A DNA stretch of 9,265 nucleotides. It comes from Anaerolineae bacterium. Its GTDB lineage: Bacteria > Chloroflexota > Anaerolineae > JAFGEY01. Every line of letters starts with the position of its first letter. The stretch's first letter is position 1. The notes under the pieces are model-generated. The model was given only the letters and a program-made list of their open reading frames with translations, searched no databases and was not told where the DNA came from. The position numbers and the translations under genes are program-made. Shown in pieces: positions 3,442 through 6,437 of this stretch. The stretch spans positions 1-9,265 of the forward strand of contig JAFGJF010000129.1 in assembly GCA_016929205.1 (NCBI GenBank), in the 5' to 3' direction.

Positions 3442-5538
3442 TCAGGGTGAATCGTTCTCTACCGAAAGAAAAAACGCCTCATCGTATGCGGCTCCCGCGT
3501 TCCAGTAGCACCAGCCCTCGTCGTTGGCCGCTTCAGCAGCACGGCGCTGCTCGGCGATTTCGTAGCGCTCATACCAATAGTGCTGAAGCCAGGGTCGAAT
3601 AATCGTATCCGTCCGCGCCATACCGTATGCCATGCTGATTTCGACCACCTCGTAGGGCTGATCGGATGGCGATGCGAGTCCCAAGTTTCCGGGAATAAAG
3701 GTCGATGGATAGACCATCGGGCAGACGTAATCCACAAGTGGCGCAATGTCCATCAAACGCTGCCCGATGCGCATATCGTGCTCGGGAGTGACCGAGAGTG
3801 CAAAGCCAAAGATATCGGCCGAAAGGAACGCCGGGGTCGGATCGATCGCCGCCTTGGCGGCAGCGACAAAGCCCGAGACCGCCGCGACGCGCGATTCGAG
3901 CGAGTACGGAATCGAATAAATCAGCGCCCGGACGACCTCGAGACTGGTGCTGTCTGAAGGATAGCGCAGGTAATCGTATTGAATTTCGTCAAACCCCATC
4001 CGGATCGCTTCCTTGCTGATCGCAATGTTGTATTCCCACACTTCTTCTCGCGTCGGATCGCCCCACGCCATCCCCTCGCGATCGTAAAAAATCTCGCCAT
4101 CAGGATGCCGGACGGCCAACTCGGGTCGAGCGACGATCAACTCGTTGTCTTTGAATATCACCATCCGGGCGATGGTATAGATCCCCTTTTCCTTGCACAA
4201 ACTCAGAAATTCGGGCAGCGGAAGCCGGGGCGTAGACATCGCATTGCTGACGGATGCGACGATCGGATCGTCCGACTCGAAGGCGATAAATCCACGATCG
4301 CTCTTGATATCGACGACAATGGCGTTCAAGATCGGACTGCGATCGACCATGTCGATGAGCTCCAGCACCCGTTCCTTGTTCCACATCAGCAAATTAAAAT
4401 TGACATAGATGCCTTTGACCGCAAAATGCGTCAGGCTGATTTCAACACAAGAAAGGCCGCTTGGATCCCGGCACGCCTTCAAGTGTTCGTTGTCCGCCGC
4501 CTTGACCCCGGGCCCAACTGGAATGGTCACCCGCTCATAACCCGGCGTTTTGACCAACAGCGTGTACACCCCCGTCAGCTCGGGCAAATGGTACCGCCCC
4601 ACCCGATCGACCGATGCCATGTCCCCGTTGAACAAGACGAGCGTATCCGTCAGCGGCTCTCCCGTCTCGACATCGCGAACAAAGCCGACGAGTTGGCGGG
4701 GAACCAGCTCGACCGAATAAGCCGCCTGGCCATCATAGTCAAACGTCGCCGTAAAATAGCCCTCTCGACGCACCGTAGCTGCGGCGTCATCCGCGAGGCC
4801 GTGCACGACGATCGTCCCCGAAGCATCGGCCTCATCACAAACAGCATCGTCCAGGCACACGGACGCCTCTGAAACCGCGAATCCCGTCAACGAATCATAC
4901 ACGCGAACGGTTGTCGTGATCGGCTCCAGCCGCCAGATCGACGTCGAACCGTCATAACTGCCGCTGTACGTTTGATACCCCGGACGGGACGCCGTCAAGA
5001 CGTCGCCGTTGGCCACACGAGTCAACACAAATCGAGCTTGGGCGTCCAGCGCCGCCTGCTGATCACCGATCGTCAGCGTCGCATCCACCAGCGGGCGATC
5101 CTTGTGCCCCAGAACCTGTCCCATCACTTTGTTGGGCTCGAGTTCCATCTCGACCACGAACGGCGTCTCCTTGCGCAGTGCCACAGTCAGCGCTTGCTGC
5201 CCTTCGAGGTATCGCGCAGACTGGACATAGGCCGTATAGCTCGCCTCGTTCTTGATCCACACCGTGCACGCCCCATCACCATCCGTCAGGCCCTCGTTTT
5301 CGCCGATACGGACCCGGGCATCGGCCACAGGCGCTTGCGTTTCTGCATCTCGGACGACGACCTGCACCTCGACAAACGCCGGCGGTGTCGGCGTCGGTGT
5401 CGGCGTGGACGTCGGCGCTGGCGTAGCCGTACTCTCTGCTTTGGCCAAAGACGAGATCAGCGGTGGCAGCCAAAAAACAGACGACAAGCCGATCACGATC
5501 AAAACGACAATCCCAATCACAATGAAGCGACGATTCAT
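3442..5538 (-). CDS. Membrane-anchored predicted glycoside hydrolase (DUF4015) with four tandem Ig-like/CarboxypepD_reg-type repeats
   Basis: A 698-aa extracytoplasmic protein. Residues 5-25 form a hydrophobic signal anchor; 36-53 are a Pro/Thr linker encoded by hexanucleotide repeats. Four beta-sandwich-like units follow at about 55-134, 137-206, 208-280 and 282-345, with the feature of carboxypeptidase-regulatory-like domains (for example VRDAETQAPVADARVRI, VRDVETGEPLTDTLVLF). Paired cysteines at 228/234 and 356/364 could form disulfides. The C-terminal part, about 371-698, matches the DUF4015 predicted glycoside hydrolase family: GIYVNFN at 377-383, VVDIKSDRG at 408-416, FDEIQYDYLRYPSD at 516-529, ADIFG at 574-578, VCPMVYPS at 605-612 and GWCYWNAG at 675-682. 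Asp410, Glu518 and Asp522 are candidate catalytic residues by position in a TIM barrel (inference). The substrate is unknown; a cell-wall or exported polysaccharide is plausible. Its promoter region carries a foldback element. Confidence 0.82.
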   Translation of the reverse strand: MNRRFIVIGIVVLIVIGLSSVFWLPPLISSLAKAESTATPAPTSTPTPTPTPPAFVEVQVVVRDAETQAPVADARVRIGENEGLTDGDGACTVWIKNEASYTAYVQSARYLEGQQALTVALRKETPFVVEMELEPNKVMGQVLGHKDRPLVDATLTIGDQQAALDAQARFVLTRVANGDVLTASRPGYQTYSGSYDGSTSIWRLEPITTTVRVYDSLTGFAVSEASVCLDDAVCDEADASGTIVVHGLADDAAATVRREGYFTATFDYDGQAAYSVELVPRQLVGFVRDVETGEPLTDTLVLFNGDMASVDRVGRYHLPELTGVYTLLVKTPGYERVTIPVGPGVKAADNEHLKACRDPSGLSCVEISLTHFAVKGIYVNFNLLMWNKERVLELIDMVDRSPILNAIVVDIKSDRGFIAFESDDPIVASVSNAMSTPRLPLPEFLSLCKEKGIYTIARMVIFKDNELIVARPELAVRHPDGEIFYDREGMAWGDPTREEVWEYNIAISKEAIRMGFDEIQYDYLRYPSDSTSLEVVRALIYSIPYSLESRVAAVSGFVAAAKAAIDPTPAFLSADIFGFALSVTPEHDMRIGQRLMDIAPLVDYVCPMVYPSTFIPGNLGLASPSDQPYEVVEISMAYGMARTDTIIRPWLQHYWYERYEIAEQRRAAEAANDEGWCYWNAGAAYDEAFFLSVENDSP

Positions 5539-5576
5539 ACCTTATGGACTCCACAACCATACGACTTTTGGATAGA

Positions 5577-5727
5577 TTGGACTTTTGACAAAGGTCAAGG
5601 AACCAGGTTTTTGATCATATGAGCAAGATATGAGATACAAGCTAGAACAATCTTTGATGCATTATGCTCGTATTTGAGGTGAAAAACCTGGTTTCTGATC
5701 GCCTCTAAAGAATTATCAAAAGTCCAA
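5577..5727. mobile_element. MITE-like foldback element with 12-bp terminal inverted repeats and 6-bp target duplication
   Basis: The ends are perfect inverted repeats: TTGGACTTTTGA (5577-5588) and TCAAAAGTCCAA (5716-5727). Directly outside both ends lies the same hexamer GATAGA (5571-5576 and 5728-5733), as expected from target-site duplication. Inside are a second perfect 12-bp pair, AACCAGGTTTTT (5601-5612) with AAAAACCTGGTT (5682-5693), and a third pair ATATGAGCA (5617-5625) with TGCTCGTAT (5665-5673) that differs by one G-T pair. The three blocks occur in the same order on both sides but with unequal spacers. At 151 bp it is too small for a transposase, so any movement would depend on an enzyme encoded elsewhere. 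It lies in the 5' leader of the hydrolase gene. The alternative is a regulatory hairpin unrelated to transposition, but that would not explain the flanking direct repeat. Confidence 0.72.
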
Positions 5728-5893
5728 GATAGATATAGGCGGGGATTATACCATAGCTTGCCCAAAGAGACCAAGTGAGAAGAGTAGACAGGCCGGATTT
5801 AGCCGCTGCAGCGGTGTAGCGCGGGTGTTGCCGGGCAGCTCGGTACGCAATACGCAGCACGGTTTCACAAACGCCCAAGCACCTACACATCAT
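5705..5893 (-). CDS. Possible small hydrophobic protein, 3' end changed by the foldback element
   Basis: A 62-codon frame that I do not recognise. Its ATG codons (5893 and 5890) overlap the 3' end of the preceding gene (ATGATGTGTAG), suggesting possible translational coupling. The N-terminal half is basic, and residues from about 35 are hydrophobic (TLLTWSLWASYG, then IIPAYIYLGLLIIL), fitting one or two membrane segments. The last seven codons fall inside the foldback element. If that element and one GATAGA copy are removed, the frame runs on for nine other codons and stops at TAA 5542-5544, just before the hydrolase ATG. Against it: a strong promoter motif lies within the frame, and no homologue comes to mind. 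Confidence 0.3.
   Translation of the reverse strand: MMCRCLGVCETVLRIAYRAARQHPRYTAAAAKSGLSTLLTWSLWASYGIIPAYIYLGLLIIL
5745..5774 (-). promoter_or_regulatory. Extended -10 promoter for the hydrolase gene
   Basis: On the minus strand the perfect TATAAT (5745-5750) is preceded by TGG (5751-5753), an extended -10, and TTGGTC (5769-5774) sits 18 bp upstream as a -35. Transcription would start near 5738, just before the foldback element, giving a leader of about 200 nt before the ATG at 5538 that is mostly foldback sequence. Confidence 0.6.
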
Positions 5894-6416
5894 CGCCCGA
5901 CCCCAGGAACCAGCCTATGAACCCACCCACAATGCCGCTGAATACACCCACCATCGCCATTGGCGTTCCGGGAAGATAGGCCATTTCAAACATCTCGCCA
6001 AACAAGCCGCCCACAACCGACAGCCCGAGAATCTGCATGCCTTCCAGGACGATCTGTCCGGCAAGCGCGCCGGCGAGCAATCCGGCGATAACGCCGACAA
6101 CCGCCCCATCAGACCGGTGATGCCGTTTCCCGGAACCTGGATCGATCAAGCCAGCTCCGCTTGCGCCCCCAACGGCGCCGGCGATGACACCGATCAACAC
6201 ACCTGCACTCGTCCAAACCTGTACCCCGACCAACATCCCCTCAAGTACCGTTTGCATCGTCCAGGACGGCCCCGAACTGCCGGCGGTCCCGCCAAAGAGC
6301 AAAGCAAAAAACGTGCCGGGCAAACCGCCCACAACCGCGCCGCTGAGCGCGCCAAACGTCGTGCCCCGCACCAGTCTTTTGGTGTGCTTGTTTGTGATCT
6401 GTGTGCCTTTGCTCAT
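5883..6416 (-). CDS. Glycine-rich multi-pass membrane protein of unknown function
   Basis: I do not recognise the family. From ATG 6416 the protein has 177 aa: a short basic N-terminus (about 1-18, ending KHTKRLVRG) and four to five hydrophobic, Gly/Ala-rich segments near 21-43, 61-86, 104-125, 127-142 and 154-172, separated by a polar loop near 92-104 (DPGSGKRHHRSDG). The two halves look alike: each has a GAVVG-type stretch followed by VLEGM (about 57-61 and 123-127), hinting at an internal duplication. Glycine-zipper packing is suggested by the many GxxxG spacings. An upstream GTG (6434) is in frame, but GGAAG (6424-6428) lies 7 nt before ATG 6416, which is preferred. It follows the 6438-7031 gene by 21 nt and probably shares its transcript. 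Confidence 0.65.
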   Translation of the reverse strand: MSKGTQITNKHTKRLVRGTTFGALSGAVVGGLPGTFFALLFGGTAGSSGPSWTMQTVLEGMLVGVQVWTSAGVLIGVIAGAVGGASGAGLIDPGSGKRHHRSDGAVVGVIAGLLAGALAGQIVLEGMQILGLSVVGGLFGEMFEMAYLPGTPMAMVGVFSGIVGGFIGWFLGSGDDV

Positions 6417-6437
6417 ATCATTGCTTCCAATCACAGC

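Follow-up and report, generated by a model that had tools for sequence, protein, structure and literature searches.

What kind of mobile element carries several inverted repeats nested one inside the other? The question is raised by a 151-bp element at 5577-5727 of the window (the whole stretch of 9,265 nucleotides of an Anaerolineae bacterium contig that was analysed), which has no room for a transposase and lies in the intergenic space that separates a DUF4015 gene, which starts at 5538 on the minus strand, from an ORF that has its end at 5883 (Table 1). A first-pass annotation had read it as a MITE with perfect 12-bp terminal inverted repeats, a second perfect 12-bp inverted pair, a third 9-bp pair with one G-T and the hexamer GATAGA abutting both ends, and every one of these features is present where it had been placed, the duplication (5571-5576 and 5728-5733) being exact. 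That annotation overlooked the nature of the inner pair, whose halves are arms of a REP/REPIN-type family tied to RAYT genes, a family that recurs in MITEs with other ends. We consider it probable, at roughly three chances in four, that the element is a chimera in which DDE-type ends surround a REPIN-type core, while the route by which the two came to be joined is one that we infer.

The terminal repeat TTGGACTTTTGA is perfect over 12 bp and its 15-nt arms match at 14 of 15 positions, and the same fraction is found for the second inverted pair (5598-5612 and 5682-5696), which includes a perfect 12-bp part and is of the AGAAACCNGGTTTTT...AAAAACCNGGTTTCT type. The third pair (5617-5625 and 5665-5673, with its one G-T) was read by eye. 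Outside the inner arms lie 21 nt of the element on the left and 31 nt on the right, and the GC content of the element is 36.4%, versus 56.4% for the window. Random windows from a first-order Markov model, 400 with the composition of the whole window and 400 with the local one, held 104 and 121 perfect 12-bp inverted pairs spaced 60-400 apart, but in neither set was any pair bounded on both sides by an exact 6-bp duplication; the actual window has two perfect 12-bp pairs, one of them with the duplication. Eight bases of the terminal repeat, GACTTTTG, recur as a direct repeat at 5563-5570, just outside the left duplication and 17 nt ahead of their counterpart in the terminal repeat.

Table 1. 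Features of the element and its flanking genes, in window coordinates
Feature	Position	Strand	Remark
DUF4015 putative glycosyl hydrolase, neighbouring gene	3442..5538	-	38 nt between start and element
Target-site duplication, left copy GATAGA	5571..5576	.	exact match to 5728-5733, abuts repeat
Left terminal inverted repeat TTGGACTTTTGACAA	5577..5591	+	14/15 complementary to 5713-5727
Left REP arm AGGAACCAGGTTTTT	5598..5612	+	1 mismatch to AGAAACCNGGTTTTT
Doublet interior, variable, 69 nt	5613..5681	+	contains 9-bp pair 5617-5625 / 5665-5673
Right REP arm AAAAACCTGGTTTCT	5682..5696	+	0 mismatches; then GATC at 5697-5700
Right terminal inverted repeat, TTGGACTTTTGATAA on minus strand	5713..5727	-	
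Target-site duplication, right copy GATAGA	5728..5733	.	abuts repeat
183-aa ORF upstream, same direction	5883..6434	-	no Pfam match at 0.001

The genes around the element include, by their Pfam matches, a DNA polymerase III delta'-type clamp-loader subunit, PSP1, PHP, SpoVS and DUF4015, together with a Cys/Met PLP enzyme and an APH-like protein, and three of the four DUF4015 homologs for which an organism is given come from Anaerolineae. Among the orthologs compared as DNA, the nearest (L001, 53% identity) is too distant to serve as an empty site, and by eye the element is absent upstream of it; no exact 12- to 13-mer of the arm or the terminal repeat occurs within the 46 ortholog loci. A search of 5400-5950 against Rfam gave a single match, far under its gathering score, and three patterns run against viral contigs returned 0 stretches. 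As RNA, the plus strand of the element has a predicted fold of -52.4 kcal/mol (z -6.86), and the interior alone folds no better than its shuffles (z 0.15). The local effect of the insertion is likely to be a strong predicted hairpin that stands 38 nt ahead of the DUF4015 start.

The outer repeats were traced by a DNA search of the 396 genomes in the class of G001, the Anaerolineae MAG from which L001 comes. At E <= 0.1 per genome, short matches appeared in 57 of the 396, and because about 40 of these are expected by chance, the matches were judged by structure; two groups then stood out, one covering the outer repeat with the first inner bases and the other the inner inverted pair. Ends identical to the left repeat bound an insertion sequence (IS) in a relative's genome (L082 1389-2967) as well as MITEs in L056, L061 and L090. 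Once five pairings that combined the ends of separate elements or took in near-matches from inside an element were left out, nine of the 12 kept terminal-repeat pairs have a 6-8-bp target-site duplication (ATTTTAGA, TATAGA twice, TCGGTTA, TTGTAA, TAGTGA, ACTCAGA, TCCTTA and TGGTTGA), and seven of these nine are non-autonomous copies of 103-229 bp. The MITE reading is thereby borne out, as two things that the first-pass annotation had named among its checks, further copies with differing duplications and an IS sharing the ends, exist in related genomes, the duplications being mostly different.

The IS is 1,579 bp long, is flanked by TCGGTTA and encodes a 472-aa transposase ORF that scores 430.9 bits against NF041680 (cut-off 440) and 85.1 bits against Pfam DDE_5 (cut-off 27), with weak scores to IS701 models; a second long copy of similar length (L087 611-2160) has no ORF of 250 aa. 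Since the window element shares its ends with this transposase-bearing IS and with the duplication-flanked copies, it is, judged from those ends, a MITE of an NF041680-like (IS701/DDE_5-related) IS that is known from another genome, and the family, which the first-pass annotation could not assign from the ends alone, can be assigned. In the 12 pairs, the base beside TTGGAC is an A 11 times at the left end and a T 10 times at the right end, which is not so in the window, so that the true duplication may be two shorter than the one scored. The duplications TATAGA (in L061 and L090) and GATAGA (in the window) suggest a target preference for ATAGA. No REP arm was found inside the IS within 2 mismatches at the nine IS/MITE loci.

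These ends bear on two simpler readings. The element might not be a MITE at all but a REPIN with a long stem, of which the outer repeats would be an extension, and the doublets do fold as one long hairpin; we hold this highly improbable, given target-site duplications and ends identical to those of an IS with a DDE transposase. Alternatively, it may be an ordinary MITE whose internal repeats are remnants or hairpin-forming filler, their likeness to other repeats being irrelevant. The ends, the duplication and the partner IS would suffice to account for the presence of such a MITE, and the window interior is unlike other interiors, with a best local score of 21 under a shuffled maximum of 27 (not significant). 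However, the 15-nt inner arms are members of a family that reaches 281 single copies in one genome (control 0), the 97-nt core has the usual doublet spacing of that family, and among 300 Markov sequences of each composition none held an arm with at most one mismatch, and we therefore regard an ordinary MITE as unlikely.

Of 199 genomes in the class, 10 contain the doublet pattern GAAACCNGGTTTTT-N55..85-AAAAACCNGGTTTC, one of them as many as 60 times, and none contains its reversed control; a short form with a gap of 0-30 is present in 15 of the 199, its reversed control in none. In a choice of 20 genomes, a gap of 31-54 gave matches in six and a gap of 86-116 in three, once each. The short form was absent from five genomes from elsewhere, from 150 genomes in the class of a Chloroflexia MAG and from 150 in the phylum of a Gemmatimonadaceae MAG. 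The family takes the forms of bare 33-34-nt hairpins and of doublets, mostly of 94-98 bp: under a pattern that allowed 83-113 nt for nearly all, 79 of 86 core lengths are 94-98 nt and 83 of 86 are 92-99 nt, with close kin making up 36 of the 86. In 75 of 90 doublets one arm has a centre base complementary to that of the other (35.6 expected if independent), and the same holds for 45 of 51 short forms (23.1 expected); these counts take in related copies and do not amount to a count of events. Duplicates were removed before ends, interiors, centre bases and core lengths were counted. The consensus arm is itself a near-palindrome (6 of 7 dyad pairs), a GA.C tail is by eye frequent in the doublets of relatives, and a GT[AG]G foot occurs in only 15 of 290 feet. 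Having a 1-nt centre without room for the crossover spacer that an integron attC needs, the arms were dropped as attC candidates.

Several copies depart from the two usual forms. Doublets at L244-L253 and at places in G110 and G034 are shortened in a graded manner from about 78 to 30 nt, the arms being kept and the middle lost, and look as if hairpin tips had been trimmed. In G181 there are 50 short-form copies, most of those listed measuring 55-57 nt and two standing in tandem (L234-L242), and by eye the flanks of several of them also resemble inverted repeats. Bare 34-nt hairpins appear to lie in frame in conserved flavoprotein-like genes (L211 1500-1533, L213 1500-1533 and L212 247-280); the peptide RNQVFPKKPGFY of an in-frame hairpin is found at the same place in two orthologs, and alignment of L213 with its solved relative 2i0z gives 7 extra residues at the hairpin.

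RAYTs are REP-associated Y1/HUH tyrosine transposases, a group that works on single-stranded hairpins. In eight repeat-rich genomes, one of 26 Y1_Tnp loci (L281, in G090) has arms nearby and 25 do not. There, a doublet ends 13 nt before the ATG of a 191-aa Y1 protein, probably a RAYT, and a perfect 33-nt bare hairpin lies directly at its stop; the protein scores 75.8 bits against NF047646 (REP-associated tyrosine transposase; cut-off 80) and 28.4 against PF01797 (cut-off 23), and its sole PDB match by sequence is TnpA-REP (4er8, E 7.4e-4). Its closest homolog in 392 genomes, a 72% identical RAYT in G241, has bare hairpins of the same family 4 nt after the stop and 26 nt before the start, and eight of the nine exact arms in G241 are on the contig of that RAYT. 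At 70% identity or more, the RAYT is found in two of the 392 genomes, the query's own included. In G090, which has three RAYT matches, two lie beside other hairpin types.

The association extends to other RAYTs, of which many have hairpins of their own. With one of 30 loci (L304) left out because no ORF was found by motif, a hairpin of at least 12 bp stands on both sides of the gene at 11 of 29 loci, on one side at eight and on neither at 10, against two of 159 control windows. These hairpins are perfect, differ in sequence and mostly have a 15-bp stem and a 3-nt loop, and two of 52 hairpin folds at RAYT loci have a GT[AG]G foot. The arms at the RAYT genes of L290-L319 and L321-L325 are often themselves near 7-1-7 palindromes. 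RAYT matches occur in 9 of 15 hairpin genomes versus 39 of the remaining 184 of the 199 (p 0.002, a value that assumes all 199 to be among the 392 searched and ignores kinship), and at 1e-20 none was found in six of the 15. In the doublet-rich G034, a RAYT fragment that covers query residues 101-190 at 60% identity has a near-arm, AGAAACCGGGTTTCT (L320 1384-1398), some 10 nt away. Because its arms are dispersed and flank RAYT genes, and because many related RAYTs have hairpins of their own, the inner family is, by sequence and gene context, a REP/REPIN-type element.

One could instead suppose that the arms are a site for a host protein or an RNA signal, such as a terminator or an RNA-stabilising hairpin, which was selected because it makes a MITE insertion tolerable. 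The very stable fold of the element, the complementary centre bases and the many bare hairpins that appear intergenic when their flanks are judged by eye are all compatible with such a signal, but the hairpins closely adjoin RAYT genes, and their sequence changes from one RAYT to the next. Moreover, three of the 14 hairpin loci shown apparently have the hairpin in frame inside conserved proteins (a stricter pattern missed one of 15, L205), and the interiors of 20 sampled cores show no more structure than chance would give (mean z -0.16), which makes a host signal an improbable explanation.

If the core is a separate element, it should be asked which ends surround it elsewhere. We assembled 87 distinct cores, the window included, from the copies listed, of which, for example, 20 of 46 were fetched from G034, 10 of 60 from G090 and 10 of 48 from G110. 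Terminal repeats matching at 10 or more of 12 positions flank 30 of the 87, compared with 7-18 in controls. An exact duplication of at least 6 bp is added in 11 of the 87, in five classes of repeat and duplication, and is missing from the other 76, while re-dealing the right flanks 20 times gave 0 such cases 16 times and one case four times. The classes are TTGGACTTTTGA with a 6-bp duplication in the window; GTAACTGCTCAG-like ends with 7-8 bp in six copies from G034, G147 and G110; GTAAGCGTTCA with 9 bp and ACTTGTTTAGCGT with 12 bp, both in G116; and TTCAYTACCCGACA-like ends with 7-8 bp in G063 and, on a 64-nt core, in G149. Further ends, CCGGACACTTTT, ACTACAACGAG and CATTGTTA, lack a clean duplication. 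The end types named besides TTGGAC are GTAAC, GTAAG, TACCSGACA and TTTAGCGT, and the GTAAC and GTAAG ends may be those of IS66.

In the copies with a duplication, the end lies 19-25 nt from the core, the right side of the window element (32 nt) being the exception. By their interiors the cores sort into groups, each with a single labelled end class, and no similarity was found across the groups, which indicates that unrelated elements share the arm pair and, largely, its spacing. The idea that the interiors are a conserved noncoding RNA was dropped, since there was neither excess stability in the 20 sampled nor similarity across the labelled end classes. The sole other core with TTGGAC-like ends on both sides, L054, has no duplication by script; by eye, TGCTGACC occurs twice there, and the left tip is 2 nt short. 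As a possible exception to the grouping of interiors by end class, a doublet in L142 (G090:C11:10959-11453) combines a TTGGAC-like end on one side with an interior of the TACCSGACA group, possibly through an exchange of ends.

Our results lead us to the following picture of the element. The outer parts would be the ends of an NF041680-like (IS701/DDE_5-related) IS, whose transposase, acting in trans, most likely inserted the element and left the GATAGA duplication. The centre, 5598-5696, would be a REPIN-type doublet of two inverted AGAAACCNGGTTTTT-type arms with a 69-nt spacer, and a RAYT would be the cognate enzyme that multiplies and spreads the arms. For the joining of the two we favor a RAYT-dependent route by which the doublet would enter palindromic MITEs at their central loop while the DNA is single-stranded, as this would explain the central and symmetric place of the doublet in unrelated MITE families; alternatively, the ends of one ancient chimera may have been exchanged later, or the arms may have been selected for in all of them. 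Beyond this locus, we tentatively propose that the RAYT-dispersed REPIN core of Anaerolineae may serve as a shared chassis to which five or more unrelated transposon families have lent their ends (with duplications of about 6, 7-8, 7-8, 9 and 12 bp), that the resulting miniature elements would be open to single-strand HUH as well as double-strand DDE transposition, and that the core would enter via the loops of palindromic MITEs.

MITEs and REPINs count as two distinct kinds of nonautonomous element, each with enzymes of its own. If the repeated combination of the two with like geometry is true, one mobile unit could borrow several unrelated transposases, and such chimeras would make testable both the origin of new MITE families and the spread of REPs outside the reach of their own RAYT. 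The letter strings of the arm and the terminal repeat were not found in the open PMC literature, and no REPIN inside a DDE MITE was recognised in the part of that literature that was covered.

With the MITEs of DDE-type ISs, the window element shares terminal repeats that match an IS, a target-site duplication, a length of 151 bp and the lack of room for a transposase, and it differs from them in the REPIN-type doublet at its centre. According to the available part of the source, REPINs consist of two inverted REPs around a less conserved spacer, in which spacer length and hairpin capacity matter, and they occur beside RAYTs with compensatory changes (PMC3116915). As far as that part allows a comparison, the doublets resemble them in their inverted conserved arms, variable spacer of constrained length, complementary centres and RAYT neighbors, and differ in arms that mostly have no GT[AG]G foot, are near-palindromic and lie inside DDE-type terminal repeats. 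Palindromic elements of Rickettsia lie in frame inside genes, as a few of the hairpins here appear to do; in the portion of the source at hand they are about 150 bp long, in contrast to the 33-34 nt of the hairpins here, and no RAYT link is described for them (PMC10969869), whereas the window's own copy is intergenic. TIRYTs, as the available text presents them, are Y1 transposases with terminal inverted repeats carrying GGGG[AT][CG]A[CG] (PMC6006769) and so also link Y1 enzymes to inverted repeats, but the outer repeats here belong to a DDE-type IS. GTAG repeats have been reported from Chloroflexi in the accessible portion of another study (PMC3733652), and in contrast to those the arms here are not GTAG footed. 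RAYT genes flanked by REPs are described, in the text available, from proteobacteria (PMC2817692), and the atypical hairpins of TnpA-REP subclass 2.6 mostly from Bacteroidetes (PMC6006769). By the textual description in the accessible part of that source, subclass 2.6 resembles what we find, that is, RAYT genes flanked by noncanonical hairpins with copies elsewhere in the genome, and the RAYTs of this class, with their 33-nt hairpins and near-palindromic arms, would add a REP type mostly without the GTAG foot.
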